In this document: in pieces, positions 7,591-58,170 of the stretch | How positions within the stretch are numbered: position 1 is the stretch's first letter | Layout of the letters: every line of letters starts with the position of its first letter | Assembly: GCF_008831285.2 (NCBI RefSeq) | Contig: NC_045142.1 | Coordinates: 4,471,501 to 4,535,500 of the forward strand | DNA from: Nymphaea colorata | Taxonomy: Eukaryota; Streptophyta; Magnoliopsida; Nymphaeales; Nymphaeaceae | DNA length: 64,000 bases | Reading direction: 5' to 3' | The notes under the pieces: model-generated | What the model saw: the letters and a program-made list of their open reading frames with translations, nothing else | Database searches by the model: none | Told to the model about the DNA's origin: nothing | Translations under genes and position numbers: made by a program

Positions 7591-7715
7591 CTACCCATTT
7601 TTTGTAAATAAATGGAGGGAAGACTACTTCCAACAACTGCCTTAAGTTGCATCCTACCCATTTTTTGTAAATAAATGGAGGGAAGACTACTTCCAACAAC
7701 TGCCTTAAGTTGCAT
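7591..7715. repeat. Exact 63-bp tandem duplication
   Basis: The segment starting CTACCCATTTTTTGTAAATA at 7591 is repeated from 7654. The copies appear identical until the second ends at about 7715. The absence of visible divergence suggests a recent duplication. Confidence 0.95.
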
Positions 7716-9485: not shown

Positions 9486-9557
9486 GCGTTTGTAGTCCAA
9501 CGGTTAGGATAATTGCCTTCCAAGCAATAGACCCGGGTTCGACTCCCGGCAAACGCA
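9486..9557 (+). tRNA. tRNA-Gly (anticodon TCC)
   Basis: A 72-nt cloverleaf can be folded by eye. The acceptor stem is GCGTTTG with CAAACGC and discriminator A. The D-arm starts TAGTCC, the anticodon stem is ATTGC/GCAAT with loop CTTCCAA (anticodon TCC), and the T-arm is CCGGG-TTCGACT-CCCGG. The internal A box (TAGTCCAACGG) and B box (GGTTCGACTCC) fit RNA polymerase III promoters. A T-run follows at once (ACTTTTTTCC) as terminator, and an upstream CAA-containing stretch (TCAAAACTTCAACGAG) is typical of plant tRNA genes. There is no intron. It reads glycine GGA codons and appears intact. Confidence 0.96.
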
Positions 9558-11218: not shown

Positions 11219-11799
11219 TCTTTCGTTACCCATAAAAACTTTGAAGCTCGGTTTTCACGAGAACAAGAAGTTAGATTCATGAAGCGTATTCCTTAAAATT
11301 TCCCCAAGAAAAGATAGCAGCTTCATTTCGCGCAGCGACGAACTGTGAGTCCCATTTCTGTATTATGGTCAAATATCTGGACTTTCGAGAAGGAGACAGC
11401 GTCTGCTTGCAGAGGGGAAGAAACCGCGAGACGAGGGAGGGCGAGTCTTGGTCGTCGTTCTCGCGTAGGACAAAAGTAGACGATCAAAGGACGCCTCTGC
11501 TCTGGGCCCCTCGTCGTCCATCCCATGGAGCAGAGAATTCTCTCCCGCTCTCTCTCCTCTTCCACTTTCTCGCTCTTTTCTTTCCCCACTCACTCCGCAA
11601 TAGAGGCTTCGACCTCTCTCTTTCTCTCTCTGACTGGCTTATGGCCGCCCTTCACAAAAGAAACGGGGACACATCCTAGGGCTTACTTCTCCTCGATGAA
11701 GCCCTAGAATCGCCCCCTCTCCTTGTATATCAGAAGTTTTCTCCTCGATCTTTTCATTTTTATTACATTTACCAGCGATCCGAGGTAGTGGATCGCGAG

Positions 11800-14700
11800 A
11801 TGGAGCTCGAGGTCGTCGTCAAGCGGGACATCGAGCACGGAGGGGAGAAATCGAGCCCCACGGGTCCTGCCCTCGTGCTCTCCAACTCCGGCAAGCGGAT
11901 GGACCAGGCCGGGACGCCGAAGAAGTACGTGAAGCAGGTCACCGGCAAGCACAACGACACCGAACTCCACCTGGCTGCCAAGACGGGGGACCTCGCTGCC
12001 GTGCACAGGGTTCTTCACGGGATAGACGAGCAGATGGTCTGTGCTGACGGCCTGGGTGCCGACGCGGAGAGGGCGGAGATTCGGGCGGCCGTGGTGAACG
12101 AGGTGAACGAGCTCGGGGAGACGGCGCTGTACATCGCGGCGGACAGAGGAAGCTTGGATATGGTGAAGGAGCTGCTGAGTCACTCGAGCAGGGAGAGCGT
12201 GGCGAGGAAGACGAACGCGGGATACACTGCGCTGCATATCGCTGCGAAGAAGGGATACCAAGGTGATGATCTGATTCTTACTGTGTTGTTTCTTGAGGGA
12301 TGCTGCTAGTTATGTTAGTTGGCGAAGTTATGATTCTTGCTTGTTAACAGACCAACCATGGTCCATCCAATTATGCTGAAATTAGCAACACGGTTTAGCA
12401 ATAAATTATTCTTATCCCAAAGTCATGTTTTTATAGAAGTTTTATTCTTCTGGGTGATTGGGTCATCGTATGGGCAGCTGTTTATATAAACTGTTTAAAC
12501 TAAGATTACAAAGATGGTATTTCTTTACGTGCTTTCATTATTTAGTTCATGTAAGTTTGTTGTTGAAAAAGATTACATAACTGTATCAATATCACCCCTA
12601 TGTTATAAACCTTGTAGCCATTTCTCGGTATTGATTTTTTATAACCTTTGGCCTGTGTTGGGTCTGATCTTCTTTTTTGCACCATCAATCTCAGGACTCC
12701 TCTTTCTTTCCTTTTCTTGAAACGTAGTTCTCTTGTAAAGGCTTTGAGAAGCAGGAGAATGCATAAATGAAAATGTTAAGATCTTTTATGAACAACGGCT
12801 TTCAATGATCACGACTTAACAAAAATGCACAACTTACAATGGTAACTTGGACTGCAGATGGAAATCTCTTGCTAGCTGGTAGGTGTGTAGTTTTGTTGCG
12901 CTCATGTTTTACAGTTTAAGTTTTAAATATTATAACGCAACGAAAAGAAAAAATCAAAAAATATATAGTTTCGACTTTTTTGGCTTTCTATAAACTATAA
13001 AATTTATTCGTTCTTTTTTCCACTTGAATGTGCTTTTATCATCACTAGTGGACCATGTACTCAGATTGAAAAATTGCCAATTGTCTAGCGCTATGCAATA
13101 TTTTGCAGTCATTTCCTGATTTTATTATTATTGCAGAATAATAAGTACTGGCCTGTTATCCTTTTGTTTATTTGCGTTGACTATGTAGTGAATTTGTATT
13201 GCTTGACTTTAGGCCTGTTATCCTTTTGTTTATTTTCATTGACTATGTAGTGAATTTGTATTGCTTGACTTTAGGTTTTTCAGTTTTTTCTGTATGGTAG
13301 TCAAATTTGCTAATTGCATCAAAATGGCACTTGCTTAGTACTACATGTTATAGACATTGTGCAGGTACTCTTAGACCAGGATCCTGAACTAAGCAAAACA
13401 GCTGACCCAAAACATGAGACGCCTCTAATAGCAGCTGCAACAATGGGGCACGTGGAGGTTGTCAATGTATTACTCTCAAAAAATTCTGCACTTCTAGAGA
13501 TCTCTAGAACAAATGGTAAAAATGCCTTGCATCTAGCAGCACGCCGAGGCCATAGAGAGGTTGTAAAAGCATTGCTGGAGAAAGATCCACAGCTAGCCAG
13601 AAGAACTGACAGAAAAGGACAAACAGCATTGCACATGGCTGTGAAAGGAACCGACTGTGAAGTAGTAAAGATGCTTCTTGATGCAGATGCAGCTATTGTA
13701 ATGTTACCTGATAGGAATGGCAATACTGCTTTGCATGTGGCAACACGGAAAAAGAGGGTAGAGGTACAGTTCAATTTCTACTTTATTTATTTCTCCCATT
13801 TTTTCATCAGAATATAACATGAATGGATAAAAGCTTAATATTATCTTGTTGCCGTGTTGCTTTGGTAGATATGGCCATGTCCAAAATGTGAGACTGGTCA
13901 TCCAACAGATGTTCTTATTCATATACTATTATGTGGACTGCATATCCGAGGGATGCTTTGTTTATGCAAATGAAAAACATTACAAAATGTTAAATATTGC
14001 CCATGAGAACATGATGCAATGAACAGGGGAAATTGGAAGAGGAAATAATCAGTGGGCTATTTCAGTATGTCGTGGGGATTCTTCATTTTGTTTCATACAA
14101 TGTTTATTTTGGAAACTTTGGTCATATGACCATTCCTTCGGCTGCTTTTTGTGGCATAGCCAGTTGCAGCACTAGAAAGTAAATTAGGATACTACTATCT
14201 ATTTCAGATAAAGGAAAGTCGAGTTTTTTCTTCCTGTCTGGTGGCTGAACTGCGTCTGAGCAAGGCACAAAATTTTTGTGGGACTGCCACCTTATACTCA
14301 TAGTTTTTCATTGGGGCCCATAAGTAGCTCCATCCTGGAGCATGACATACCAATTGATTACTCTTGGCAATTGTTTCAGCACTCAGAGCCTTTTTGGTCT
14401 TTCCCCTTTCTTCAGTAATCAAGACCATAAGGTTAGTGATATAATGTGATGCAAACTTTAGATAATGCTCTCTCTCTCCCTGGGTGTGTGTGTGTGTCTA
14501 TCTGTCTCCGTATAGATTATTAATCCAAAGTACATACCTTTCTGTGAGGAGAATAACATGGTTAGAATGGAATCATAAGCTTATGCCTTATCCTTAGTTT
14601 GCTTGGTTTTATTGTTGTGGATTAATTAATTTGAAGCAGGCAATAACATCTAATTTGGCTACCATAGTTTACCACATCCTTATAAAAGTTTCCTTATAAA

Positions 14701-17336
14701 AGTTTTCTAGTTTGGATATCTAGATTTCGCTTGGTCCAAGTAGCCAATCTCATGATCATTGATGTGGCCATGTGCAGAACTTGGCAGCTAGGTTGGACCT
14801 TTGACTTAATATAGTGTGTGTGGTGTGTATGTATTAGCTGGCTCTTTAATAGTTTACATGAACAAACATACTCTAGGTATTGAATTCTTCACCACCTCCA
14901 ACTTGAAGGTCTTAATTTTAACCCTAGCACAGTAGACTGACTAGTCATACTTGTTGGACAATGGTGAAACCAAGAGAAGATGATGTAGTCTTCCATTCCA
15001 TGTGAAGAACACCTCTAAAGAAACTTTCTCCTTTTAGGGTTGACCCTATAATTGGTCCTTTGACTATAACACTCCTAGGCAATTGGCTGAGATACAGCAT
15101 TAACAACTGTATGATACACGATGAAAAGATTTGATAAAATAAAAAATGAAAAAAATGGCACTACAATGCACAAGATATATTTTGCATTTCTCAAACTTGA
15201 GATGATGCAAGTGAAGTCATTCCAACTTTGGAAAGGAACAGCCAAAATCGAGGAATCATTGGGCTTTTGGTGAAGAATCCTATAATTTGCTGTTCAGATC
15301 CATGATGCTATAGGGACAACTTCATCCAGTTAGGCTTGGTTATTGAAGTGACAATCTACCTCAATGTGCTTTATGCACTTGTAAAGTTTTGGATTCATTG
15401 GTTATGTGTGTGTGGTGTGTGAGCATGTTTTGTTATTAATATATGATGTTATAATGTCATTTTCATCTTTGTGACACTAAGTTGCTAGACTGCTAGTAGA
15501 GCAAGTATAGCAAGCCTAGTTCTTCAGACATGAAATTCATTATGCTGAATGTTTGATTCTCTATATTAGGATATTTATAACGGGGTAACAGCTCTTAGGG
15601 CATTTACAAAAAGGTACTTATATTTTTTGGGGATTTGGTCTTTCAGGTGATTGATGTGAATGTTACATGAGCAAAGGATTGCCATGTACGATAAGTTACC
15701 CCACATGGATGCATGAAAAGAACATTGTTTCTGAAGGTTATGCCATGTACATTATTGTGGTCCTTAATTCACTTTGCCATTATAAGCTCTTCATCATTTC
15801 ATTTTCTTGATGGAGGGAGGCGTTCAAGACTTTTTTGACAAGTCTTGAACAATGTCATCAATAACTTAAACCCCAATAGACTCATGGTCAGTAAAAATGG
15901 ATGTAACTGCAATAAATTTGATTCGTCATGCACCTTTCCATCTTAAGTAGTAAAAAGTTTTATGCTTGTTAGAGAATTAAAATCTTCAAATAGGTTAGGT
16001 TTTCATGTGTTGTACTGGTTTAGCTACTCTCTTCAACCTTGACAGTAGGATAATGCTCTTGAACTTATTGCAATTTCGTTACTGTTACATAATTCAGCAA
16101 CGAGAACAGTTTGCGAACATGCTTATCCAATTTCAGCCCCAAAATATTATTTTAAGGCCCTTAGCATTCAGAGGCTCACTTCTGATTTCCTTATTTTCCG
16201 TAGAGAAATAAGCATTTTGTTTTGACACTTTTCTTTCCAGTTTCAATTTTCAATGACTGGAAAATCTGTATGATTGCAATGATGTTGGTTAGTCAATAAT
16301 GATGAAGACAGTACAAAGATAAAGGGAAGATGGTACAGCTGTATGTTCTTTTAAGAAATTTTTATATTGTGTTAGGCTCTCTCGTCCACGATTTAGATAT
16401 CATTCACTGTTCTGTTTTTGTGTCCTTGCAAGTTGGGGACTGTGTATGAGTTGTTGTTGCTTCATTACCTAATCATGTCTTTTCTTTTCCTGCTTCTAGA
16501 TAATGCATGAGCTGCTAGTTCTTCCGGACACCAATGTAAATGCTCTGAACAGAGCTCACAAGACAGCATTTGACATTGCAGAGGATCTGCCGTCTTCAGA
16601 AGAAGCCACTGAAATAAAGGAATGTTTGCAACGATTCAATGCACTTAGAGCTAATGAGCTCAATCAGCCAAGAGATGAGCTGCGCAAGACTGTTACTGAG
16701 ATAAAGAAAGATGTCCGTACCCAGCTAGAACAGACTAGGAAAACCAATAAAAATGTAGATCGTGTAGCCAAGGAATTGAAAAAGATGCACAGGGAAGGGA
16801 TAAATAATGCTACAAATTCTGTTACTGTGGTTGCTGTTCTTTTTGCCACAGTTGCATTTGCTGCCATTTTTACTGTTCCGGGTGGAAATCTCAATGATGG
16901 CCGAGCAACGGCGGGTGGTGCTGCTGCTTTCAAGATTTTTTTCATTTTCAATGCAGTTGCTCTTTTCACATCGCTGGCGGTGGTGGTGGTTCAAATTACC
17001 TTAGTGCGAGGGGAAACGAAATCAGAAAGGCGGGTGGTCGAAGTGATTAACAAGTTGATGTGGCTGGCTTCAGTCTGCACATCTGTAGCATTTATTGCCT
17101 CCTGTTACATTGTGGTAGGACGGCACTATGAGTTTACTGCCGTCATTGTAACTCTGATTGGAGGGCTGATAATGGGGGGTATCTTGTGCGGCATGACATG
17201 TTTTGTCTGTAAGTCCAAGCGGAGTCGATCACTTAGGAAGAGGGAGAGACTGTTGTCAAGGAGGAGCATCTCTCGCTCATGGCCGCGCCATTCCGACGTG
17301 TCTGCTTCAGATGTAGATGCAATTTATGCGATATGA
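11800..17336 (+). CDS. Ankyrin-repeat PGG-domain membrane protein (ITN1/ACD6-like)
   Basis: Three exons: 11800-12262, 13354-13763 and 16500-17336, giving 569 aa. Intron 1 uses CAAG|GTGATG and TTATAG|ACATTG, which restores the frame inside the third ankyrin repeat; intron 2 uses GAG|GTACAG and TTCTAG|ATAATG. The ATG at 11800 is the first in frame. About eight ankyrin repeats occupy aa 53-335, with core motifs such as TELHLAAKTG, TALHIAAKKG and NALHLAARRGH. A charged helical linker follows (about 350-395). The PGG motif lies at about 417-420, followed by four hydrophobic segments (about 399-418, 434-460, 473-498, 503-527) and a basic Ser/Arg-rich tail. In this plant family the ankyrin part faces the cytosol and members act in salt/ABA responses (ITN1) or defence signalling (ACD6). 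Family membership is clear; the specific role is not. All exons are open, so the gene looks functional. Confidence 0.93.
13150..13273. repeat. 62-bp tandem duplication in intron 1 of the ankyrin gene
   Basis: The unit GGCCTGTTATCCTTTTGTTT... begins at 13150 and again at 13212. The copies differ at a few bases (GCGTTGAC versus TCATTGAC). It lies within 100 bp of the exon 2 acceptor and so may affect the branch-point region. Confidence 0.93.
13764..16499 (+). other. Intron 2 of the ankyrin gene
   Basis: A 2.7-kb AT-rich intron with no recognisable gene or transposon. Contents are short GT-rich runs (around 14486-14500 and 14813-14830) and short chance ORFs. Confidence 0.7.
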
Positions 17337-18364: not shown

Positions 18365-20131
18365 CAGATTGCTGCCATGTGGATCCCAGATCGTAGGAGA
18401 AGTCCAACACCTATATTCTGACCTAAGATCCATGGAGATGAGCTCCCTGCTAGATCTTTGATCTACGGGATCTCAAGTCTGGTGTTTGTTATACCTGCAG
18501 ATTTACTTCAGATCTCTTGCAGGCCTAACATTGGATTTGGAATTGGAGGCGAACAAGTGCTGTCTATGGTTCAGTACAAGTCGTTTTTGCTCTTTGAGAG
18601 AAAAGCCCCTCAATGAGCCACAATTGATGTTGCCTTATGAAGGCAGCACCGCCGAAATAGTACCCACATAAATCAAACTGAAGATGAGTTCCAACTAGCA
18701 ATGCTACACCCCTACGAGCCGAAAGCAGCACCCTAAAAAAACTCATTTACAAGACTGGACTTGATTTAGAATTTTCAATTTAGTTACTAGCTACCTTCGG
18801 CGACTCCCTCTTGTCATCTGCTTACCATATGTGGAGAATAAGTCCACAATTTTTTTGGTATCTGAGTGTTATTAGAATCAGCCAATTTGAATTGAACAGG
18901 TGATAGGATTCGGTTAGACAGCAGATTCAACCAATTATTAAACATATTATATTTGTTTATTTTAAATTATTTTTATACAATCTTTTCATTTATTTTTTAA
19001 AAAATAGTTTTTATAAATTTTTAGCCAATTCACAACCATTTCGTCGAATCGACAGCTTCAGATTCGGTTCGACCGATTTTTATAACATTGGTGGAATCCA
19101 CAAATTGCCATTGTTCTATCTACAATAAAGCCGAGAAGTGACTTGATCCAAGCTTTGAGGCGCACCAAGTAGCAGAAATGTGGGGCAGACCAAAGATGAA
19201 GTGGAAGTTTGGTGATCAACGGCATTCTAGATGCATTTTATGATGTGTACCTGCCAACAACTGGGGAGCCACAAAAAAATCAGCTCGTGGGGCACTTGTT
19301 TAAAAGCATTTATATTTAGAGGGGCACCTATATGTATAAAAGTAAATATTAAATTTGTTAATGTAAAAATAAAAAAAAATTAAAAGAACTGGTGTGCCTG
19401 CTAACCTTTCGCAATAACCTTGCGTCCCTCAATAGTAGTTTGAATTATATCATCTTCTTTGTTGAGGTGCTATTATTTCCATGAAGGCGAAGAAAAAGCT
19501 GTGAAACCTAATTTAATTTAACTAAATTCATGCTTTAGAATATAAGCACTACCAATATTTTTTTTTTAAATTTGTGAGCACCAACTTCATAATATAGCTA
19601 GTATAGTCGGCCAGAGTGGCGTGTTGTCAATGCATTCTTAATTTGATTTTCATAGATGCAGAGTATACCATATGATTATCTACTTAACTGCTCTAAACCT
19701 TGAAGAGAGGAAGAAGGAAGGAGACTTCAACCTCCACTGGCCAAATAAGAACTCACAAAAAAAATATGTGTAAAAAAAAATATCAAAAATATAAAAAAAT
19801 TGCTTCTTTTGCACAACTTTTTTTTTGAATTAAGAGTCTCTATAATTATAGGATCTGGTATTATTAAAGAATTAAAATTAATATACACTAATACTTTTAT
19901 ATATCAGCATTCATATTAAAATCTGAAGGCATAAAGTGCCATTAAATACAAGTATACATCTGCGTCACGAGACCGGAGAAATGTTGCATATTTGCTGATC
20001 CACTTATACTGAAGTCTTGATAGAACGGCAAAAAACGGCGTGATGAGTTCTCTTTTTTTTCCCTTCCCCGTCTATTCGTGCAACGGGACGGAGTTTTTTA
20101 CTATGTTCTCTCGGAGAGAGATAGTGAGAGC
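17337..20131. other. Intergenic: 3' flank of ankyrin gene and 5' flank of Nudix gene
   Basis: No gene recognised. Contains a pure (CT)n run and, around 18880-19095, an AT-rich segment bordered by GGATTCGGTTAGAC and CAGATTCGGTTCGACC, possibly a decayed DNA transposon. The 5' flank of the Nudix gene has T-runs and an A/T-rich ATATAT at about 19900, but no convincing core promoter. Confidence 0.5.
18317..18362. repeat. (CT)23 microsatellite
   Basis: An uninterrupted CT dinucleotide run of 46 bp; likely polymorphic. Confidence 0.97.
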
Positions 20132-23100
20132 ATGGAGGAGGGCCCTGAGGAAATCGGCGTAGATCCTCATTCCTACAGATTGGTTCTCTCTTGCCCTACG
20201 GGGCTCTCCAGATCCCAGGTCTCTCCCTCCCTCCCTCTCTCTCTCTCTCTCTCCCCCTCTCGGTGAATCTTGCGGCTTGTGCATAGTTGGTCGGGCTTTT
20301 GTTTATGTTTAATTTTGATTCCTTAGAATGCCCTACGGGGCTTTCCCATTGGTTCTCTCTAGAAGAATTTTTTAAAATGGTTGTGGGGAATACGATGGAT
20401 ATTGAGTTTAATTTCGATGCATGGCTTGACATTTAAGAATCTTAGCTTGTTAAGGAATGGTTTCTTTAAATCATATTGTTCTTTTCTATAATAATAAATC
20501 CTGGAAACTAGGGGAAGGAACGCCGTGGCAAGAGTGGTGGTAAACTAATATGAAGAAAGTTATGAAATTCCTCAAGCTGAACATGTCTTGTTATTGGAAT
20601 TTGATGTAGTTGATTGGAGAGAATCAGAGGCTTTATTGATGTGATCTCGTTTCAAGTGGATGGAGAAGGACGAAGTAGTTAATGTTGGTAGTGTGCGTGC
20701 GTGCATATGTATGTAACATATTAGTTATGGTGCCTGAAGAAGCAGATCTTGTTTAGGTTAACTTGGATTAACATGAACTTGATCTGTTGGATTTGCAGTG
20801 AGAGAGAGGCCTAACCTTAGTGAAGTAAGAGAAAATGACAGCTTATATTACAAACATGGACGCTCCTTATCATCCAATATTGCTATCCATGCTTGTTCTT
20901 ACTTAGGCTTATGCCATTTCACCCAAACATGTGATATTGAAGCTTTTATAGGGACCAATGTGCATGTTGAAGGAGCAGAGTGCCGAAAGGTTTCTTGTTA
21001 TTCCTTAGTTCCTCAGTTATAGTCACCAACATTATTGTTTGTGCTTTCTTGGCAATGGTTTTTCTGAGGAGTTTCTATAATCTGATATTTGAAAAACTGT
21101 AAAGGGTAAAAACTAACAAAAGAGATTTTTTTTTTAGTATGGCTTCATGAATTTTGAAATTATAGATTCTTAAGTTTTTCCTATAGGACTGTAAAGGCAA
21201 AAGCAAAAAGTTCTCGAGATATAAAGGAAATATAAAAAGAAAGAAAACATATATAAAGGAAACATCAAAAGAAAAAACATAAGCACAAGTATAAAAAATC
21301 TTCTTTTGAAAGTCAGAAAGAACCGTAAGATAATATCATGTGTTTTGTTGTTTACCTTATGATCTTCTAATTTGATTGGTTAGCTTTGATGCTAAAATCT
21401 TTTTCTCAGATGATAAAGTCATATTAACAATTTCCCCCTCTCTCCCTGTTCTTGTGGAATGTAGGTCTTTGTGGATTTCAGTGCTGCTTATGATAGGGTG
21501 CCCAGTCCAAATTTGGAGTTGGAGGAATCTATATCTAAGGTTTATTTTGTGAATACCATGTTTTGTATTATATCTGCAAGTCCGGATGAATTATGTCTTA
21601 TTATTTGGAGAATTAAATGATCCTTTGGTTGTATTCAGTATTTAACCTTGGTGAGTTTGCTCACATATTTTCCAACATTTGATCTATTCTGTAAAGTCTT
21701 TTACTAAGCCAAGTACATTATGATTTATCAACATGCATGTGTAACTTCATGATTACATGAAGCCAATATTACGTGAGAATGCTAAACCTCATTTTTATCA
21801 TAAGCATCACTAATTTCTGCCAGAAGGGCTCTGCGCTAATAGTAGGAAAGACTTGTGATTGGCCTTAAAATGACCAGACATTGAGTTTGGAATCCTTGAA
21901 AGGCATCCCTTTGCTGCCAGGTCAAAGCTGCATCTGCTCCTTGTTTGGGAGGTTTTTCCTATAAGAATCCTGATTTTGCTGTCAATATATAGTTGGTGAG
22001 GTTTTTCCTTTGTCTATCCAAGAAAAGCATTGCCAGTTTCGTTTTATGAAATATGGTTGACAGTTGAAGGTCTCTTGGAGTATCCTTATGGCCATTTCAG
22101 GAACAGCTTCAGTTTCTGTTTAATAAATTTGGTTCATTATAAGTTCAGCCGATATTTGTCCATACAACTATGAGCGATACAGTTGTTTCCTGACTTGATT
22201 CATGGAAGGTTCTATCATTGGAACTTGGATGTTTAGTAACTTTTATGGATAATTATTTATCTTTATATAAAATGGCATGCTTTTTTTTACTATAAATATC
22301 AGGTGCACAACCACAGTATTCACATTTAAGTAAGTTTAAGAAAAGGTTGCCCAACTTTTAGTGACACAAAAAAGCATACTCAAGCTTTAACGGTTTCCAT
22401 TTATTCCCCTCCTTTTCTTTAATTTAAGCAGTTAAAGGTAAAATATTTGAACGTCAGCATGCTTTTATTTTTCATTCAGATCATATCCAACTGATTCTTA
22501 ACTCTAGCATTCTTTTTCACTCTGTTTACTAACTTTTTGTATATGTCATTGTCTTTTCCAGATATGGGATGAAAGAATTCAGAAGAATCCATTGTTATAT
22601 AATGGGAAGAAATTTAGGGTACAAAATTTGCCTTTCTCAATTAGGTTCCTGTTTCAAGTTCTTTTATCGTTGGCTGGCTGTACTATTTTGGTGCTACATA
22701 TTTTTACTGCTTAACTTTTGTATTTTTTATCAATGGTTTCTTTAGCCTAGAGATTCCATGCCTGAGGCTTCCTGTTGACAAAAATTAGAAATAATTCTAG
22801 AAGAAATTTTTTAATTGGTAAGCTGGGGATTAAACTTTGTTATAAGTTAGAGACTTAGAGCACTTCAATAGAGATGGGAATGGGATTAGATATTCTTAAT
22901 GTTTGATTTTTGAGGTTTCTTGTTGAAATTCATTAGAAATATTAAAGTTTCATTTTTGAAGCTGGGGATTTCTCTATGCTGTATATGGTTAAAATCATTT
23001 CAATCTCATGACTAAGAGATTCTTAGATGCTAGCAAGTTACAGTCATTTTTCTTTTCTTTAATTGGTGGCAACCAGCTAGCAATATTCTATGCATATATA

Positions 23101-26100
23101 TTTTCTTATCTCTCAAATGTATTTTTCTTTTCTTTTTTCTGAAAATTTGACATTGTTTTTGCTTATATAGTTTGGAATTTGGAGACAATTGCTTCTCTGA
23201 TGTAATTAGTTAGAACTTAGAAGATGTGATTGTTGTAGAGTGCTTTTGCATGCTTAAGTGGTTTTAGACTCAGATCCAACCGTCACAACTTCAGGTCAAA
23301 CTTGATGTCTGTGTGTTTACATAAAGATTTTTTGGCAACTGATGTAATCAAGCAGCCAGTTTCTAAATTTGCAGTATGCTGGTTATAAGTTTTGCCCTGC
23401 AGAAGATGGTGCAAATAAAGAGCCCAGTGTCTGTCTTCAGCTTGGTCTGACGGACTACAGGTCTATCTTACATATTCTGCGCTTTTTTGAATTTTAATTT
23501 GGAAACTTCTGTTGATGACGTTTCTTGGTTTGCAATATGTAAAGCCTATGTTTTTTCTTTCTGGAAATATAATTCCAGTTTGCAACTTGCTACACTAGAT
23601 TGAACTTCCTTACCATGTGCTTCAAAGTAGGTATCCAAAGTAACCAGCTGAGTAGATTGATAAAGATCAATTGCATGATTGCACCAGATTTGATGATCCT
23701 GCACCTTGTGCGTCATGCAAATGAACTAAGCTAGTAAAGTGAAATGAAAGACATCTCTATATGTGACTATTTGTGTATGACTATGCCAGAAGATATTAGA
23801 TATGTATATGCTTATTTAAAACTACATAATATACAGGACAAATGTATTGATGTTGAGCATCAGCTAGTAGATGCTTTATCTTCTTCCAGCTTTATCACAT
23901 AGGTACGTGTGATGTGGCCAAGTACCCATGTCGGTATGCAGGTACGGTGTTACAGGCACACGGGTATGGCTGTATTTTAAAACTTAAAAATTTATCCTTT
24001 CAAATTTGATTTTTGCTTTAATTTTGATTTTTCTCTTCTTTTTATTTCCCATCCGCATAGATTCTATGTTTTTGTCCCTCTTTTCTTTAATTTTGAGAAC
24101 TTTTGTGGATTATTATATATACAATGTATATATTTATATATGTGCAATGTCATGTCCCGTACCCAGAATTTTCAAAACTGGCTCATACCCACACCACCGT
24201 ACCTATACCACAGCAGTACCCACACCCATGTGACATTGCCTTCCAATCGACGAAAGAGGGTATCAACCGCAATAATAGTTGATATCATGTTGTCTTCTGA
24301 AATACTTTGTGCATAATTTTTATTTTTCTTTTATGTTGCACTTGCACACAATTATATATGCTATTAATGGTCTACGATGAGAGTTGAATATATTATTATA
24401 TTCTGAACTAATTATGACAACTCATTTTCAAAACTGACGCAAGCATCTGGTTGGGTAGATCTTGACCTGCTTCAGTGTCTACTTTGGTTCAACTTCTAAA
24501 AGAATTATTAACTAGGACACAAGTTAGGATGGGGTTTGTTAGAATATATTGTATTGGGAACCGGGTCCATATATAGACCCGGCCCTATGGGGCACGGATA
24601 CCGAGGCGGACTCGGTACCCTAGGCGGCACTCTTTCTCTCCCTCCTATATATTCTTCACTTACATGTAATTGTTGAGTTAAGTGAATATTATTTTTCTCT
24701 CTCCTAGGGTTGCGGTTTGCCCCTAGGTCAGAGCTTCCCCGTGGTTTTTCACCTCTTTTTGAGGTTTTCCACGTATATTGTGTGTTCTTTCTCTGCTCTC
24801 TCCTTGTGGTTCGTGTTTCTACATGGTATCAGAGCCACCGCGTGTGAGATCGTTGATGTGCAAGTAGTGTTTTTTCCGCCGTTCACGTGCCGCCTCCGTT
24901 GCCGTTTCCAGCACCGCCGCCGACACTGTTCCCAGCGCCGCTGCTGTTGCTGTTTGCAGTGCTGACGCCGTCTGACGCCGTCCAGGAACGCCGCCGCCGT
25001 CCATCGTTCCCAGCGCCGCCGTCGTTTTTCCGCCGACCAGGAACGCCGCCGCCGTGGTTCCCAGCGCTGCCCTGCCCGGCCGCCGTCGCTGCTCCCAGCA
25101 CCGCCGTCGCCTGGGTTATCGTCGCTGTTCCCAGTGCTGCCCTGCCGCCGTCGCCTGGGTTAGCTGCGCCGCCGCCGGGTGTCTTGTTTCCGCCGCCGTG
25201 GGTTGTGCCCTCTCTGCCGCCGGTTGTGACCTTTGGGGATTGCGATGGCTGATGCAGCGATGCCCAAGCTTGATGATGCCCTCGACACTTCTCACTAGTG
25301 CCCACCTTATCAACCGTATGTCTACTCGTGTGTTGGATGGTCATTCCCCTTATTCTGTGTTGTGGCCCACTCAGAATCCCTGGCCTCTAACCCCTCGAGT
25401 GTTTGGGTGTGTTTGTTTTGTCCATGATCATAGTCCCACTCTCAAGAAACTTGATCCTCGGTCCATCAAAGCAGTCTTCTTGGGATATTCCTCCACCCAG
25501 AAGGGATACAGGTGTGTTGACCCTAGCACTTCCAGAGTATATGTCTCCAGGGATATGACCTTTCATGAACATGAGGCATACTTTCCTGCGAATCCTCTTC
25601 AGGGGGAGTGTTTAGGTGACAGAAGGGAAGAGTATTCTTCGCATCAGTTGATTCAGTTCATGGATTTCTTGGATTATACGGTGAGTTCTCCAAGTGTGGA
25701 AAACGTTGTCAGTGAGGACAGAGACAGTCAGATGGAGGGGGGCCCTGTGGAAGAACAGTCTCGAGATCACCTATTTGGTCAGGTTTACAGCAGGAAGAAG
25801 AAGGATGTGATGGAAGATGTTGATGTTACCAATCCCAATCTTCCCAATCTTGTGACCTCCCCGGATGATCCAAGTCCAATGAATGAAGAACTTCCCATAG
25901 CTCTGCGCAAGGGCACCAGGTCATGTACTTCTCATCCTATTCAGAGATTTGTTTCATATGCAAAACTCAGTAAAGACTACAAGTGCTTTGTTACCTCTTT
26001 ATCTATGGCTGTTATTCCCAGGTCAGTGGAAGATGCAAGGAAGGATCGTAAATGGCTACAGGCCATGACAGAAGAGATGGACGCCCTGGAAAAGAACAAT

Positions 26101-29100
26101 ACGTGGGAGGTTGTTGATATCCCCAAGGGAACTCACTTAGTTGGCTCCAAGTGGGTGTTTAATGTGAAGTACAAACCTGATGGCACTGTAGAACGCTATA
26201 AAGCTCGTCTTGTTGCTAAAGGGTTTAGCCAGAAATATGGGATTGACTATCTTGAGACGTTTGCTCCCGTGGCGAAACTGAAGACCGTAAGGGTCATCTT
26301 AGCTCTTGCAGTGCAAAAGAAGTGGAGAATGGACCAACTTGATGTAAAGAACGCCTTCTTGAATGGTCACCTTGAGGAAGAAGTCTATATGAGCATGCCG
26401 CCTGGGTATGCTCGGAACGGGAAGTGTTGCTATCTCAAGAAAGCTTTGTATGGTCTCAAGCAATCCCCTAGAGCTTGGTTTGAAAGACTAAGGGTTGTAA
26501 TGAAGACTAATGGGTATAAACAGGGAAATGGTGATCACACCCTCTTCATCAAGCAGAGAAATGGTCTGGTGAGCCTTTTACTTGTATATGTTGATGATAT
26601 GATTGTCACAGGCGACGACGAGGGGGAGAAAAGGAAGATGAAAGAAACGTTAGCTGCAGAATTCGATCTCAAAGATCTGGGTAAACTAAGGTATTTCTTG
26701 GGGATTGAGATCGCGCGATCTGAGACTGGGCTTGTTATGAGCCAAAGAAAATACACGTTGGATCTTCTAAAAGAGACAGGTAAACTGGGATGCAGGCCCT
26801 TTCTTACCCCAATGGAGTCTGGCACAAGGATAAGTATCAAAACTGAGACTATCTTGGATGAGGAAGGAAAAGGGAGGTATCAGCGTCTGGTTGGTAAACT
26901 TATTTATCTCACTCTTACTCGCCCAGATATTACGTATGCTGTGGGTGTGTTAAGTCAGTTTATGCATGCTCCTACTGATTGTCATTGGAAAAGTGCTGAA
27001 AGAGTATTGGGATACTTAAAGAATGACCCAGGGAAATGACTACTCTACACTCGGCAAGATCAACTAAGCATTGAAGGATACTCTGACGCCGACTGGGCAG
27101 GATGCACAGATACTAGGAGGTCTACCACAGGATACTGCATATTTCTTGGAGGTAACCTTGTGGTATGGAGAAGTAAACGTCAAGAAGTTTGTTCCAGGTC
27201 CAGTGCTGAGGCTGAATACAGGGCGGTTGCTATGGGGGTTACAGAGATGTTATGGCTCAAAATTCTTTTAGCAGATATTGGGGTTAAAATGGAAGAGAAG
27301 ATGAGGATGTATTGTGACAACAAGTCTGCGATTAACTTGGCAAACAATCCGGTCATGCACGACAGGACCAAACATGTGGAGATCGATCGTCACTTCATAC
27401 GGGAACGCATAGATTCAAAGGAGTTGATTCTGCCCTATATGAAGTCTGAAGATCAAGTTGCAGATGTCTTAACTAAGTCTTTATGTACATCTCAATTTGA
27501 GAAAAATGTTAGCAAGCTTGGCATGTTTGACATGTATGCCAAGCTTGAGGGGGAGTGTTAGAATATATTGTATTGGGAACCGGGTCCATATATGGACCCG
27601 GCCCTATGGGGCACGGATACCGAGGCGGACTCGGTACCCTAGGCGGCACTCTTTCTCTCCCTCCTATATATTCTTCACTTACATGTAATTGTTGAGTTAA
27701 GTGAATATTATTTTTCTCTCTCCTAGGGTTGCGGTTTGCCCCTAGGTCAGAGCTTCCCCGTGGTTTTTCACCTCTTTCTGAGGTTTTCCACGTATATTGT
27801 GTGTTCTTTCTCTGCTCTCTCCTTGTGGTTCGTGTTTCTACATGGTATCAGAGCCACCGCGTGTGAGATCGTTGATGTGCAAGTAGTGTTTTTTCCGCCG
27901 TTCACGTGCCGCCTCCGTTGCCGTTTCCAGCACCGCCGCCGACACTGTTCCCAGCGCCGCTGCTGTTGCTGTTTGCAGTGCTGACGCCGTCTGACGCCGT
28001 CCAGGAACGCCGCCGCCGTCCATCGTTCCCAGCGCCGCCGTCGTTTTTCCGCCGACCAGGAACGCCGCCGCCGTGGTTCCCAGCGCTGCCCTGCCCGGCC
28101 GCCGTCGCTGCTCCCAGCACCGCCGTCGCCTGGGTTATCGTCGCTGTTCCCAGTGCTGCCCTGCCGCCGTCGCCTGGGTTAGCTGCGCCGCCGCCGGGTG
28201 TCTTGTTTCCGCCGCCGTGGGTTGTGCCCTCTCTGCCGCCGGTTGTGACCTTTGGGGATTGCGATGGCTGATGCAGCGATGCCCAAGCTTGATGATGCCC
28301 TCGACACTTCTCACTAGTGCCCACCTTATCAACCGTATGTCTACTCGTGTGTTGGATGGTCATTCCCCTTATTCTGTGTTGTGGCCCACTCAGAATCCCT
28401 GGCCTCTAACCCCTCGAGTGTTTGGGTGTGTTTGTTTTGTCCATGATCATAGTCCCACTCTCAAGAAACTTGATCCTCGGTCCATCAAAGCAGTCTTCTT
28501 GGGATATTCCTCCACCCAGAAGGGATACAGGTGTGTTGACCCTAGCACTTCCAGAGTATATGTCTCCAGGGATATGACCTTTCATGAACATGAGGCATAC
28601 TTTCCTGCGAATCCTCTTCAGGGGGAGTGTTTAGGTGACAGAAGGGAAGAGTATTCTTCGCATCAGTTGATTCAGTTCATGGATTTCTTGGATTATACGG
28701 TGAGTTCTCCAAGTGTGGAAAACGTTGTCAGTGAGGACAGAGACAGTCAGATGGAGGGGGGCCCTGTGGAAGAACAGTCTCGAGATCACCTATTTGGTCA
28801 GGTTTACAGCAGGAAGAAGAAGGATGTGATGGAAGATGTTGATGTTACCAATCCCAATCTTCCCAATCTTGTGACCTCCCCGGATGATCCAAGTCCAATG
28901 AATGAAGAACTTCCCATAGCTCTGCGCAAGGGCACCAGGTCATGTACTTCTCATCCTATTCAGAGATTTGTTTCATATGCAAAACTCAGTAAAGACTACA
29001 AGTGCTTTGTTACCTCTTTATCTATGGCTGTTATTCCCAGGTCAGTGGAAGATGCAAGGAAGGATCGTAAATGGCTACAGGCCATGACAGAAGAGATGGA

Positions 29101-32100
29101 CGCCCTGGAAAAGAACAATACGTGGGAGGTTGTTGATATCCCCAAGGGAACTCACTTAGTTGGCTCCAAGTGGGTGTTTAATGTGAAGTACAAACCTGAT
29201 GGCACTGTAGAACGCTATAAAGCTCGTCTTGTTGCTAAAGGGTTTAGCCAGAAATATGGGATTGACTATCTTGAGACGTTTGCTCCCGTGGCGAAACTGA
29301 AGACCGTAAGGGTCATCTTAGCTCTTGCAGTGCAAAAGAAGTGGAGAATGGACCAACTTGATGTAAAGAACGCCTTCTTGAATGGTCACCTTGAGGAAGA
29401 AGTCTATATGAGCATGCCGCCTGGGTATGCTCGGAACGGGAAGTGTTGCTATCTCAAGAAAGCTTTGTATGGTCTCAAGCAATCCCCTAGAGCTTGGTTT
29501 GAAAGACTAAGGGTTGTAATGAAGACTAATGGGTATAAACAGGGAAATGGTGATCACACCCTCTTCATCAAGCAGAGAAATGGTCTGGTGAGCCTTTTAC
29601 TTGTATATGTTGATGATATGATTGTCACAGGCGACGACGAGGGGGAGAAAAGGAAGATGAAAGAAACGTTAGCTGCAGAATTCGATCTCAAAGATCTGGG
29701 TAAACTAAGGTATTTCTTGGGGATTGAGATCGCGCGATCTGAGACTGGGCTTGTTATGAGCCAAAGAAAATACACGTTGGATCTTCTAAAAGAGACAGGT
29801 AAACTGGGATGCAGGCCCTTTCTTACCCCAATGGAGTCTGGCACAAGGATAAGTATCAAAACTGAGACTATCTTGGATGAGGAAGGAAAAGGGAGGTATC
29901 AGCGTCTGGTTGGTAAACTTATTTATCTCACTCTTACTCGCCCAGATATTACGTATGCTGTGGGTGTGTTAAGTCAGTTTATGCATGCTCCTACTGATTG
30001 TCATTGGAAAAGTGCTGAAAGAGTATTGGGATACTTAAAGAATGACCCAGGGAAATGACTACTCTACACTCGGCAAGATCAACTAAGCATTGAAGGATAC
30101 TCTGACGCCGACTGGGCAGGATGCACAGATACTAGGAGGTCTACCACAGGATACTGCATATTTCTTGGAGGTAACCTTGTGGTATGGAGAAGTAAACGTC
30201 AAGAAGTTTGTTCCAGGTCCAGTGCTGAGGCTGAATACAGGGCGGTTGCTATGGGGGTTACAGAGATGTTATGGCTCAAAATTCTTTTAGCAGATATTGG
30301 GGTTAAAATGGAAGAGAAGATGAGGATGTATTGTGACAACAAGTCTGCGATTAACTTGGCAAACAATCCGGTCATGCACGACAGGACCAAACATGTGGAG
30401 ATCGATCGTCACTTCATACGGGAACGCATAGATTCAAAGGAGTTGATTCTGCCCTATATGAAGTCTGAAGATCAAGTTGCAGATGTCTTAACTAAGTCTT
30501 TATGTACATCTCAATTTGAGAAAAATGTTAGCAAGCTTGGCATGTTTGACATGTATGCCAAGCTTGAGGGGGAGTGTTAGAATATATTGTATTGGGAACC
30601 GGGTCCATATATGGACCCGGCCCTATGGGGCACGGATACCGAGGCGGACTCGGTACCCTAGGCGGCACTCTTTCTCTCCCTCCTATATATTCTTCACTTA
30701 CATGTAATTGTTGAGTTAAGTGAATATTATTTTTCTCTCTCCTAGGGTTGCGGTTTGCCCCTAGGTCAGAGCTTCCCCGTGGTTTTTCACCTCTTTCTGA
30801 GGTTTTCCACGTATATTGTGTGTTCTTTCTCTGCTCTCTCCTTGTGGTTCGTGTTTCTACAGGGTTCATGTATATACAGAAAAGCTTTACTAAAAAATCT
30901 TAGATATGCCACTGCCCTACCACTTTCATATTTAAAACATTACACAATAGATACACGTGCGCCAAACACTAATAACCACACCAACACCTTAACTGTGTCA
31001 AACTCTACCTCTATATTTTGGCTCTCATCAGAAGGGGAGAGAGAAGAATCCACTTTATGAACAAAGACATGTGATAATAAAGGGCCCATGTGTGTATTGT
31101 CAACAAATTTACTTGGTTGATTATGAAACTATGCCCAAGCCACTTTCACACTTGAATCAGTGTTACTAACATGTGGATGAACATGCACCAAAATTTCATA
31201 ACGACTCGTGTCACTCACAAATTATCTCCATATTCTAACTTGTCTCAGAGTGAGGAAGTGGAAACAACACTTCATCTTGTTTCAAATCTTCTACAAGATG
31301 GGGGCCAATCTATAGCTACGAAGAGTGACAGTGATGTCTCATAGACCTAGTTCCAAAATTCTATCTATTTATTTACATCTAGAGGGTCAAGGTGTCAGCA
31401 TCTGAAACTTTTGTGCACTGATACCAATACCAAAAGTTCCTTGACATGTATACTTCATTTTTCTAAATTATAAGTACAGAAGCTCCAAAAAGGCTCTTGA
31501 AGCTAGGTGACTAACATTCTTGAATGTCTTTTATGCAAAATGTCAACCATCAAAAATTTCATATATAATTCTTAACCCTATTTTTGGCTAATATTCAGAA
31601 AATAACAAATTTGCGATTCTATTTAGATTCTTATGAACTCATTAATATTCCTGCTGGTTCATGTTATGAACTTATGATTAATTAATTTCTCTAGATTGAT
31701 AACTTATATTATTGAGAACATTTAGCTTCATGGTGGGCACATAATATTTATCCCATTTAATTAGGTTATTTTTTATAGCATATATGGATTGTTTTTGCAC
31801 AAAATCTGCATCTAACCTTTTTTTACTTGTTCAGGACATTTGCAGGCACAAATTTAAGCCCTTTTTGGATGAAATTTATTGTTCATTCTGAAGGTATATT
31901 CAAGATGGCGATTTTCAGTGACATGTACATGCTCGCACATGCACATACACACATAGTATGCACGCACACATGGAGAAACTCTTGTAGGCACATGTGTGTG
32001 GACCCTGGATGCATACAAATAAAAGGTTAGCAGACAAAACCCAAAGCACCAAACCAAAGATAAGCCTGAAGCTCATAATGTTTTCTTAATAAATAATAAA

Positions 32101-34043: not shown

Positions 34044-37000
34044 AAAGATAAGGTTTTAAACAAACAAAACAACACATTCATGATTCAAAATTTATCGTTC
34101 TAAAGAAGAAGCTAATGCACAAAGTATGAAAGTAACAAACATATTAAAAATAAAAAATATATTAGCTTTACAGCTTTACTGTTCCTTCTCAGTCTCATTA
34201 TCAAGATTAGAAGGAATGGTAGGTTCCTAAAGGTCCATATTAAAAGCATGCAAGTCATGTTCTCCTTCAAGATCCATGTCAATGTCCTCTAGATTGCCAT
34301 CCCAATACTTGGATGATCCCAAACTGCAAGTTGCAACACAAACACAATATAATTTAAGATTAACTTCAAACGACCAATGAACAGATTTATAATTTTGTAC
34401 ATATCGAAGATAAAAATAAGAAAACATTACCTATAATCATCCGAAGTGCGTTAAAAGTAAGCATAGGTTGGAGTGAACATAAACTAAATCTTTTGTTTGC
34501 TTACTAGTGAGTTTATTTCTATTGATCTTGTGAATTTGTGGGTAAGTGTTTTAGTTCCTTTCACAACATGATAAGGTTGCAGGTTGGGATAATTACTTGA
34601 ACGCAAACCATTGAAGGTTTGGTGTCCCTGCTCCAAAACATGACCACCAGTTAATAGAATCCTCTTCATCTCTTGCCATCGCAACTGCCAAGGGATCATT
34701 TTTTCCACCTGAGAAGCTCACAAATTCATTATTTATTATCTTCAGCATATGAGGATTGTTAAAGATACAAAAAAGGGGTTTTCTGAAATATTAGGAAGTT
34801 AGGGAAGGTCTCTTTAAATGTTTTGTTACTTTTAGTGGACTTCTCTTGTAATTTTCCCTAACCCTAATCTCTTAATAGAGATTAGGGTCACGTAATGCAA
34901 AATAACTTTTTGCTGCCTCTCTCTCTCTCTGGTAACATGGTATCAGAGCGGGTGTGGGCGTCGACGGCAGAGTGCACTTTCCGGTGACCTTCTCCGGCGA
35001 TCACCATCTTCTCCGGCGACAATCTTTCCGGCGAACAGCCAAGTGAGTTCGTTCCTTTTTTTTTTCTTTCGTTCTCTCCCTTGTCACCGCTACTCCTTAT
35101 TCCCTCTTATCACCCAATAAGGAGACAGTGAGGGAATAGGGGTTGGGCGTGCCGTGAGAAGGAGGACCTGATCACGCCTATGTGGAAGGCGTGATCAGAT
35201 CCTCATATTGGTCGTATGAAGAGACTATTGTGGATGCAGCGTGACGTGTGACGCTGTGGTTTGTGATGATCGTAAATACAGTTTCGGTAAAGTCAAGCTG
35301 CGTGAGGTGTTGTGGATGCTTTGTGGAGTCTATGTGCTGCTTATAAATTCAGGTTTTTTGAATATGATCAGATTTTTTTTCTATAGACCGTGGATACAAA
35401 TTCAGTAAAGAAAGGCTGCGTGAGGACTGTTGCTGATCCTTAGTACAAGTTTTTTGTTTGATTTCGTGGATTTCTTTGACACGTGGACAGGAAGTTTTAT
35501 GAGAACTAGCTGCTGTTATAAGTGGCAGCAGTCTTCAGTCGTTGGGAGCAACAGTCTTCAGTCGTTGGGAGTTCATTCTTGTTTTTTTGTCATCGGCTGA
35601 ACCAGATCTGAAGTGACAGTAATTTCCTAGCCCTCTTTCTTTAAACGTTTGCGTCAATCTGGTCTTCTTTATTTACTATGGCTGAAAACAGTAAATCTGA
35701 AGGGTCTACTGACTACAAGATGGCTGGGAATTCATTCTCTTATGGAACCACGATGAAACTTAATGGCTCAAATTATGAAATATGGTCTAGGGTATTCATA
35801 ATGTCGGTGGCTGGTCATAGGAAGAAATATATTCTTGAGGAGGATGAACCTATTGAGAAAAAAGGAATATATGCTGCGTGGGATGAAGATAATTATATTG
35901 TTATGTCTTGGATTATGAATAGTGTGGAGTCTCATATAGCTCCAACTATTGCATATTATACCAAGGCCAAGGATATGTGGTCTTTCTTGAGAAAGACATA
36001 CTCGCATGCCACTAATGTAATCAAGATCCTACAACTAGAAGAGAAGTTATGCAACATTCGACAAGGGGATCAGGACCTATCTCAATATTTTGCTACTTTG
36101 ACTGCTGCATATGAACGGTTAAAGGCTCTTCGCCCACCTTGCCAGCATTGTTATGCATCACACGTTGAGACTGGTATGGTGGCAAAGTTCTTATCTGGCC
36201 TATCTTCAGAATACTCTGTGGCAAAGTCTCAAATTCTAACAGGCAGTGAACTTCCAGATTTAGCAGACACGTATAATAGGCTGAGTCGCTTTGCAGCCAC
36301 TCTTTCTCAGACTACGCATGACATACCAGTCTCTGCACTTGTGATATCAGGAGGACGGGGCCCTAGTTCTTTTGGAGGCACTAAGGGGCGTGGTACAGGC
36401 CGTGGTGCTGGACGTGGCAGATTTCAGTGCTCTTATTGTGGCAAAATTGGTCATCTAGAGGACCGTTGTTGGGACAAACATCCTCACCTCAGGTCTAATG
36501 TTTCCTCTGGACGTGGTGGAGGTAGAATCACCACAAGCAGAGGTCCTTCTTCATCCCAGGCAACTCATTCAAAGGCAACAATATCTATGGTTGAGTCTTC
36601 TACTGATCCTTCTATATCTATGTCATATTCTCTTAACCTAAGTAAGGATGAATATGACCGTGTTCTTGCTCAGAGGTCTGGCTCTACATCTGCCTCTACA
36701 TCTACCAATGCTGCTGTTGTAGATTCAGCATTCTCTGTTAGTGCTCCTACTGCTGATCCATGTATGACATGGATGATAGACTCGGGCACTTCTAGACATT
36801 GTTGTAATCAACCACAAAGTTTTTCATCATTTGTCAGATTTTCTACACCACAGTATGTTAAGCTGGTTGATGGCAAGTTGTCCCCTGTTTTGGGTAGCGG
36901 TGATATTTATCTTCCACATTTAGGCACTATTACACATGTGTTATATGCACCTCAGTTTCCTGTTAATTTGATATCTGTGAAGCAGCTAGCTATCGACTTA

Positions 37001-40000
37001 CAATGCAAAGTCATTTTTGAATCTGACTCTTGTTCTTTTCAGGACTTACCAACTGGGAAGATGATTGGTGGCGGCCATGAGCGTGAGGGCCTTTATTTTT
37101 TGTCAATCCCAGTTGATGTTGCTGCATCTTCAGTCCCTTCCAAGCCTTCTCCCTTCCAATGGCATCTCAGATTGGGTCATCCTTCCGTACCAAAACTTCG
37201 TCGCATGTTTCCAGACATTCCTGCATCAGAGTCCTTCTTATGTGATGCCTGCCAGTTGGGCAAGCATACACGGAGCAGCTTTCCTTCGAGTCAGAGTCCA
37301 TCGAGTCAGAGTCCTTTTGATCTCATTCATGTGGATGTATGGGGTCCTAGTCGGGTTCCTTTTCGATCATGTTTTCGATATTATCTTGTTCTAGTTGATG
37401 ATTTTACTAGAGTCAGTTGGGTTTTCTTGTTAAGGGAAAGATCTGAAGTCATATGTATTCTTCAAAAATTTATCAAGGAAATAAAAACTCAGTTTGGATT
37501 CATTGTCAAAAATATTCGCACTGATAATGCTCTTGAATTCAAGTCTTCCATTCTACTTCAGTTTTATGCCGACCATGGAATTCGACCTCAATATACTTGT
37601 CCACATACGTCCCAACAGAATGGTGTAGCCGAACGCAAACATCGGCAACTCCTAAACGTAGCTCGTACCCTCATGTTACATTCTCACATGCCTGCCTATT
37701 TTTGGGGTGATGCTATCCTTACTACGTGTTACCTCATTAATAGATTACCCTCTTCCTCCATTCAAGACCGTATTCCAATTCAAATTCTATATCCAGGGCG
37801 TTCATTATTTCATTTACCTCCCAAAGTTTTTGGATGCACTTGCTTCGCACATATCCTAGGCCCAAACAAAAGCAAACTTGCTGCCCAAGCCATCAAATGT
37901 ATCTTTATTGGCTATTCAGCTAATCAAAAGGGATACAAATGCTTTGATCCCGTGACCAAGAAAGACATTATCAGTGCGGATGTTACCTTCTTTGAGTCTC
38001 GTCCTTATTTCCCTCCGTCAAGTCCCTCTTCATCTGAGATGCATGCACCTATACCTCTTCCTATTCCACCAGTGTCACTTGAGTCATTTCCATCATCTCA
38101 ACCTAGGTCACATGAACGTTTTCTTGAGCCTCCGTTGGTTTACACTCGTCGTCTAGGTCCCTCTCTCAACCGTCCACCAGCATCGTCTCAAGAGGTAAGC
38201 TCTACTGAGAAGATTGACTCAGGTTTAAGTGATGACTATTCTGCAGCAGATCTCCCTATTGCTATTCGCAAGGGCAAGCGACAGTGTACCTTACATCCTA
38301 TATCTAATTCTGTCTCTACTGCTCATCTGAGTACACACTTAGTACAGTTTGATCAAGCTTTATCTAGTCATGTTATCCCGTCCTCGCACCATCATGCCCT
38401 GTTAGATCCACGTTGGCGACAAGCTATGCAGGAGGAAATGGATGCTCTTCTTTCTCGGGAGACTTGGGATTTGGTAGACCCCCCAACACGCTGTGATGTG
38501 GTTGGCTCACGATGGGTATTCACCATCAAGTATCATTCTGATGGGTCAGTTGAAAGGTTCAAGGCCCGTCTTGTCGCAAAAGGTTATACTCAGACTTATG
38601 GTGTTGACTTCTTTGAGACCTTTTCGCCTGTGGCCCGGTTGGGCACTATTCGCTTGATTATCTCTCTTGCTGTGCAACGAGAGTGGCCTCTTTTTCAATT
38701 GGATGTCAAAAATGCCTTTCTGTATGGAGACCTTTCTGAAATTGTTTATATGCAGCAACCACCTGGTTTTGAGCGACAAGGGGAGTGTTCCAAGGTATGC
38801 AAGTTAAAGAAGGCTATTTATGGACTCAAACTGAGTCCCCGTGCATGGTTCCAAAAGCTTACTGAAGTGTTATCTAAGTGTGGATTTAGCCGATCCCAGC
38901 TTGATCACTCATTGTTTATCAAGCGAGGCTCAGCAGGACTTGTGATATTGATTGTCTACGTGGATGATATTGTTCTTACAGGGGAAAATGATCAAGAGAT
39001 AGCTCAAACAAAGGAGTTTTTACAGCAACACTTTGTTACGAAAGACCTTGGACAACTTCGTTATTTTCTTGGTATTGAGGTGGCTCGTAGTAATAAAGGA
39101 GTTGTAGTGTCTCAAAAGAAATATGCTCTTGATCTTCTACAGGAAACGGGACTATTGGGGGCTAAACCTGCCACACTTCCCATGAATCCTCGCATTCATA
39201 TACATGATGATGACTCAGAGCCGTTTGACTCTAGATCTTACAGATCTCTGATAGGGAAACTGTTGTATTTGACTGTCACTCGTCCCGACATTAGCTTTGC
39301 TGTGAATAAGTTGAGCCAATTCATGGAAAAACCCCGAAAAGTTCACTGGGATGCAGCTCTAATGATTGTAAGATACTTGAAATCAGCCCCGGGAAAGGGG
39401 CTATGGTTCAAGAAAGGAGAATGTGTTGACATCGAGGCGTATAGTGGTGCTGATTATGCTGGATCTGTAGATGATAGGAAGTCTACTACCGGGTTTTGTG
39501 TCTTTGTGGGCGGTAATCTTATTTCCTAGAGGAGCAAGAAGCAGAATGTTGTGGCTCGTTCTAGTGCTGAGTCGGAATATAGGGCTATGGCTCAAACTGT
39601 GGCTGAAATGTCGTGGGTTAGATCACTTCTTGTAGAGTTGGATGTCTCAATGAATCTCCCAATGAAGATGTATTGTGACAACAAGGCAGCTACATATATC
39701 GCTAACAATCCTGTCTTCCATGAGCGGACTAAACACATTGAAGTGGATTGCCACTATATTCGGGACTTAGTTCAAGGAGGAATTGTTAGCACTATTCATG
39801 TCTCCTCAGAAGATCAGGCAGCAGATATTCTCACTAAAGCTCTTCCCATAGGCGATTTCCTGAGATGTTGTAACAAGCTGAGCATGATTGACATATATGC
39901 TCCAGCTTGAGGGGGAGTGTTAAAGATACAAAAAAGGGGTTTTCTGAAATATTAGGAAGTTAGGGAAGGTCTCTTTAAATGTTTTGTTACTTTTAGTGGA

Positions 40001-57209: not shown

Positions 57210-57285
<76 letters not shown>

Positions 57286-57370
57286 CCCTGACATAACCCC
57301 CGGAGCTCCCCTTAAGCGAAAAAAATGGACAACATAAGTATCTCATCTGCTTTTAGCTGGACGGTTCTTG

Positions 57371-57423
<53 letters not shown>

Positions 57424-57516
57424 GAGAGTGCCCTGACATAAACCCCGGAGCTCCCCGTCAGCGAAAAAAATGAAAAACATAAGTATCTCATCTGTTTTTA
57501 GCTGGACTGTTCTTGT

Positions 57517-57564: not shown

Positions 57565-57572
<8 letters not shown>

Positions 57573-58063: not shown

Positions 58064-58170
<107 letters not shown>

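Follow-up and report, generated by a model that had tools for sequence, protein, structure and literature searches.

How did a copia-type retrotransposon with three long terminal repeats (LTRs) and two internal regions come to occupy a single target site? The question is raised by an array on contig NC_045142.1 of Nymphaea colorata (NCBI RefSeq assembly GCF_008831285.2), in the stretch of 64,000 bases from position 4,471,501 to 4,535,500 of the forward strand, which we call the window and number from 1. The array runs from 24537 to 30861 (6,325 bp) in the order LTR, internal region, LTR, internal region, LTR, with LTRs of 287 bp and internal regions of 2,732 bp. From the sequence, the best reading, which we regard as fairly probable, is that one element inserted, its two LTRs drifted apart, and unequal recombination between LTRs then added a unit. 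The parts are as follows, the target-site duplications and the primer-binding site being read directly from the letters.

24532 to 24536, no strand: left outer target-site duplication (TSD), GGGTT
24537 to 24823, plus strand: LTR1, 287 bp, TG...CA, unlike LTR2 and LTR3 at LTR positions 39 and 223
24824 to 24835, plus strand: primer-binding site (PBS), TGGTATCAGAGC
24824 to 27555, plus strand: internal region 1, 2,732 bp, in the order G+C-rich leader, putative gag start and putative deletion junction, integrase C-terminal SH3-like domain, reverse transcriptase, RNase H region, polypurine tract
25246 to 25299, plus strand: putative remnant of the gag start, then the deletion junction into integrase, placed approximately by a three-frame reading
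26095 to 26817, plus strand: reverse transcriptase of copy 1, RVT_2 (PF07727, E = 2.1 × 10−71), residues 348-588 of its open reading frame (ORF)
27037 to 27039 in copy 1 and 30056 to 30058 in copy 2, plus strand: in-frame stop ahead of the RNase H region
27547 to 27555 before LTR2 and 30566 to 30574 before LTR3, plus strand: polypurine tract (PPT), GAGGGGGAG
27556 to 27842, plus strand: LTR2, the shared middle LTR, same sequence as LTR3, no adjoining TSD
27843 to 30574, plus strand: internal region 2, same sequence as internal region 1
30575 to 30861, plus strand: LTR3
30862 to 30866, no strand: right outer TSD, GGGTT

A repeat search of the window returns three copies at spacings of 3,019 and 3,019. 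When the window is compared against itself, identity is near-total at a lag of 3,019 between about 24.53 and 27.85 kb, and at a lag of 6,038 only the LTR matches. Inside the array, exact identity at the 3,019 lag extends over as much as 3,083 bp (24760-27842), far above chance. The original prediction of three LTRs, two internal regions, and a period of 3,019 bp occurring twice is correct to the base, and so is its placing of GGGTT at the outer ends only. The middle LTR is bordered by GGGAG, the end of the PPT, and by TGGTA, the start of the PBS, hence there is no TSD at that point. The 5-mer itself is scarce, with 50 occurrences on the plus strand of the window or about 0.0008 per position, so a matched pair directly outside both TG...CA ends is unlikely by chance. 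One outer TSD pair together with those ends shows a single insertion at GGGTT. Alternating LTRs and internal regions, an LTR at each end, and a TSD confined to the outside are also the features by which a tandem LTR-retrotransposon is recognized. A nested second insertion was considered and is ruled out by the absence of an inner TSD, and 2 independent neighboring insertions that later recombined are disfavored, given matching outer TSDs and units without a single difference.

The copies hardly differ at all. In a base-by-base comparison, internal regions 1 and 2 agree at 2,732 of 2,732 bases, so the divergence is not that of independent insertions, and LTR2 and LTR3 agree at 287 of 287. LTR1 differs from both of these at 2 of its 287 positions, having A rather than G at position 39 and T rather than C at position 223; the middle LTR therefore carries the 3' LTR allele at both variant sites, as had been predicted. 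A duplication at or near the time of insertion would have left like divergence in internal regions and LTRs. Instead, LTR1 and LTR3 differ at 2 of 287 positions and the two units of internal region plus LTR at 0 of 3,019 (Fisher p = 0.0075), and the chance of 0 differences in 3,019 at the LTR1–LTR3 rate is 7 × 10−10. By this sequence comparison the duplication is probably much younger than the insertion. With rates of 1.3 × 10−8 and 6.5 × 10−9 per site per year, the insertion would date to 0.27-0.54 million years ago and the duplication to under 0.04-0.08 million years, very loose figures given that they come from two differences only.

The history that we favor would begin with a single copia-type element, deleted before or after landing, at GGGTT. 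Its 5' and 3' LTRs would have diverged at two positions, as the 2 in 287 suggests, and non-allelic homologous recombination would then have joined the 3' LTR on one chromatid or homologue with the 5' LTR on its partner, adding one unit of 3,019 bp, either by a crossover or through repair of a break that was primed at the wrong LTR. If a crossover, its reciprocal product would be a solo LTR. The exchange would have fallen rightward of LTR position 223, within the final 64 bp of the repeat, and an exchange there leaves the middle LTR with both 3' LTR alleles. Consistent with this history are the TSD at the outer ends only, a PPT and a PBS that abut the middle LTR, and a stop common to both copies. 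We ran a simple model of mutation and duplication with 400,000 trials at each of three total divergences of our choosing (0.001, 0.0035, and 0.007). If every mutation comes before the duplication, the likelihood of the observed pattern is 0.031, 0.091, and 0.048, respectively; if every mutation comes after it, the values are 0.00007, 0, and 0, and the likelihood drops as the modeled duplication is shifted from the present toward the time of insertion. These likelihoods favor recent duplication of an older element by LTR–LTR recombination. A uniformly placed crossover yields the observed middle LTR with a probability of 0.23. No function of its own would be expected of the array, and its likely fate would be gain or loss of units by the same route.

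Several points weigh against this history. Given a crossover, the likeliest outcome (probability 0.64) is a middle LTR that combines the 3' allele of position 39 with the 5' allele of position 223, and this is not what is observed. Compared with LTR2 and LTR3, LTR1 shows at both sites the state that a C-to-T or G-to-A change would give, in CHG and CHH contexts, and the LTR1 changes could be private ones that arose after the duplication. In that case the two differences would not locate the crossover, so the earlier placing of it to the right of position 223 is sound provided that both differences predate the duplication, which is what the model favors. The entire inference hangs on two differences that are not polarized by any other family member, and an assembly duplication would likewise give perfect identity of the 3-kb unit. 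The claim of one insertion followed by unequal crossing-over stands as the best account of the locus, and what it left out was the deletion-derivative nature of the unit, as well as rival accounts by dimer insertion, circle or cDNA entry, and assembly, and the earlier cataloguing of such structures.

What the unit encodes bears on these rivals. The longest ORF per unit has 661 aa, starting at 25054 in copy 1, and contains the SH3_retrovirus domain, which is the integrase C-terminal SH3-like domain (PF25597, E = 1.1 × 10−27, residues 114-176), followed by the reverse transcriptase. The other 3 of the 4 array ORFs that were scanned have no Pfam match, and none of the 4 has a match to gag, protease, or the integrase core (rve). 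Near 25.25 kb, the sequence suggests the first dozen or so gag codons and then a jump into integrase. The internal region of 2,732 bp compares with 4,980 bp (34938-39917) in a second copia element nearby, and the first tblastx homology between the two pairs internal position 426 of the array with 37676, roughly 2.7 kb into the neighboring element. The missing gag, protease, and integrase core, the short internal region, and the in-frame stop lead us to read the unit as a non-autonomous deletion derivative, with deletion and stop common to both copies. In the ORFs scanned it lacks the open gag, protease, and integrase core of an autonomous copia element. Its membership of Ty1-copia (Pseudoviridae) is indicated by an integrase, here the C-terminal part only, upstream of an RVT_2-type reverse transcriptase, and further by TG...CA LTRs, a 5-bp TSD, and a PBS and PPT at the internal ends. 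We take the PBS TGGTATCAGAGC to be the complement of the initiator tRNA-Met 3' end. At 3.0 kb and with a reverse transcriptase, the unit is not one of the terminal-repeat retrotransposons in miniature (TRIMs), which are very short and have no coding region. The RNase H region aligns by tblastx with the neighboring element at 51.6% over 221 codons. Its 133-aa ORF has 0 Pfam matches, and in the PDB it has 3 weak matches to Rab-9A (E = 0.41-0.68), none credible; the name RNase H is thus presumptive and leans also on sequence motifs. The leader (24824-25245) is 67.5% G+C, and at 24890-24954 a 24-bp unit recurs in 2.7 degenerate copies. Captured host sequence was considered there, and both of the 2 leader ORFs scanned were without a Pfam match.

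The duplication might belong to the assembly, the genome having one ordinary element whose internal region and 3' LTR were repeated once by the assembler. The exact identity over 3,019 bp and the equality of LTR2 and LTR3 are what this would produce, and we consider it unlikely: the window contains no N, so no unmerged scaffold gap is visible, and assemblers collapse identical tandems more often than they expand them. A comparable array in rice is backed by four spanning reads, which vouch for such structures there and do not bear on this one (PMC11899658). An origin outside the chromosome would have a one-LTR circle or linear complementary DNA (cDNA) of the same element enter one of its LTRs by homology. 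It predicts identical anatomy, and integrase-independent entry into pre-existing elements is reported in yeast work cited by the 2025 rice paper (PMC11899658). The reference list of a yeast review contains a title on Tf2 mobilizing mainly by homologous recombination of cDNA (PMC7175516). Such a donor would have to show 0 differences in 3,019 bp, deletion and stop included, and hence come from this copy or an identical sister; moreover, a unit with no recognizable gag, protease, or integrase core would presumably depend on a helper for its cDNA. We rate this route as quite improbable.

A ready-made dimer, whether a concatenated transcript, a product of template switching, or recombined cDNA, might instead have been inserted once by integrase, which fits the single outer TSD pair. 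Template switching has been proposed for Cassandra arrays (PMC7215508) and tandem transcripts of one-LTR circles for rice tandems (PMC11899658), and Ty1 multimers are reported to transpose in yeast strains without SGS1 (PMC4378997). A 3-kb unit would be easier to package as a dimer than a full-length element. On the other side, the simple model favors LTR recombination over dimer insertion: with a dimer, the three LTRs and the two internal regions would all begin identical, and the only two differences in the 6,325 bp must then both hit LTR1, for which p = 0.002 under uniform mutation and 1/9 if changes are confined to LTRs, with reverse-transcription errors outside the model. We give dimer insertion very little credence, and a slightly smaller chance still to its specific version, in which a concatemer of two units with one LTR in common, derived from a gag-less copia element, is made outside the chromosome and inserted once with the aid of helpers. 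If that were true, and the same dimer stood elsewhere with other TSDs, tandem units themselves could transpose in plants. About as improbable as dimer insertion is that we see a snapshot of a longer array expanding and contracting by unit-wise exchange, or an older tandem homogenized by gene conversion. The units now share an uninterrupted exact match of 3,083 bp, and up to seven haplotypes occur at rice tandem loci (PMC11899658), but this calls for more events than one duplication and there is no near-identical relic of a unit elsewhere in the window. Against the rest of the window, the LTR has 2 weak matches only (E = 0.05 and 0.62). Of the 7 blastn matches to the internal region, 6 (67-75%) fall within the diverged copia element at 34.8-40.1 kb, and the seventh covers 40 bp at 20113-20152 (80%, E = 0.003). 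One scan for viral-contig relatives, with a 569-aa stretch, gave 2 pattern matches and 0 confirmed.

Recombination between LTRs that had already diverged, as we favor, can be set beside what is known of such arrays. Morales-Diaz et al. (2025) describe tandem LTR-retrotransposons in rice, Arabidopsis, almond, and cotton, with 266 candidates in a rice pangenome of 76 accessions, 88% of them gypsy; Arabidopsis and almond have 11 each and cotton has 130. In rice, single, tandem, and solo-LTR alleles occur at one locus (PMC11899658). Those tandems, like the present array, have two internal regions, three LTRs with the middle one shared, a short TSD at the outside only, and high identity between units, and are read as single insertions. 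The array differs in being a copia deletion derivative with units 100% identical, where the internal regions of the two rice tandems given in detail are 94% and 99% identical (PMC11899658). The Discussion of that study is undecided between recombination and complex insertion as the origin of tandems. On this the array offers one clean data point, as two diagnostic LTR differences with otherwise identical units favor recombination after LTR divergence. The shared middle LTR would also leave the locus prone to unit loss, unit gain, and solo-LTR formation.

The same anatomy is found in the LTR-IN-LTR-IN-LTR complex elements of Arabidopsis and maize covered by LTRtype (2017), the available part of which gives counts and schemes; the array is here analyzed LTR by LTR for recombination. 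In Arabidopsis, LTRtype counts 883 solo LTRs and 474 intact elements but 10 with three LTRs; on maize chromosome 10, solo LTRs number 12,233 and complex elements 142 (PMC5379124), in agreement with the earlier remark that arrays are rarer than solo LTRs. In absolute terms three-LTR arrays are not very rare: PMC7215508 cites a figure of 4,600 or more for BARE1 in barley and describes BARE1 as autonomous, unlike the array unit. Closer in kind are the tandem TRIMs Cassandra (PMC7215508) and Wukong (PMC4528315), which are likewise short non-autonomous elements in LTR-sharing arrays; they are explained by LTR recombination or template switching, and 8 of 89 intact Wukong elements have three LTRs. 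TRIMs have no coding regions, whereas the array unit of 3.0 kb retains a reverse transcriptase. The array is a further example of an already catalogued structure and not a new kind of system.

The second copia element occupies 34752-40103 with its TSDs, AGGAT on both sides. Its LTRs of 181 bp (34757-34937 and 39918-40098) are identical, and by these zero differences it is probably recent. A single ORF of 1,283 aa has matches to gag, Pol_BBD, gag-pre-integrase, rve, the SH3-like domain, and RVT_2, and stops in frame ahead of the remaining RNase H region.

Elsewhere in the window, an ankyrin-repeat gene lies in pieces at 11788-17336 with a PGG domain at its end (PF13962, E = 1.1 × 10−28), which we presume to belong to the plant ankyrin-PGG membrane protein family, and a 62-bp tandem duplication at 13150-13275 falls within this gene region. 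The ORFs at 44581-45141 (186 aa) and 58361-59434 (357 aa) resemble exons of plant genes and have no Pfam match at E = 0.001. Simple repeats include a minisatellite at 1-492, truncated by the window start, with a 39-bp unit and a higher-order period of 157 bp; a perfect head-to-tail duplication of a 63-bp unit at 7590-7715 (100% identical); and a cluster of TA, AG, and CT microsatellites at 57211-58168 that also includes long inverted repeats and a tandem pair of 145 bp. A tRNA-Gly gene with anticodon TCC is located at 9486-9557.

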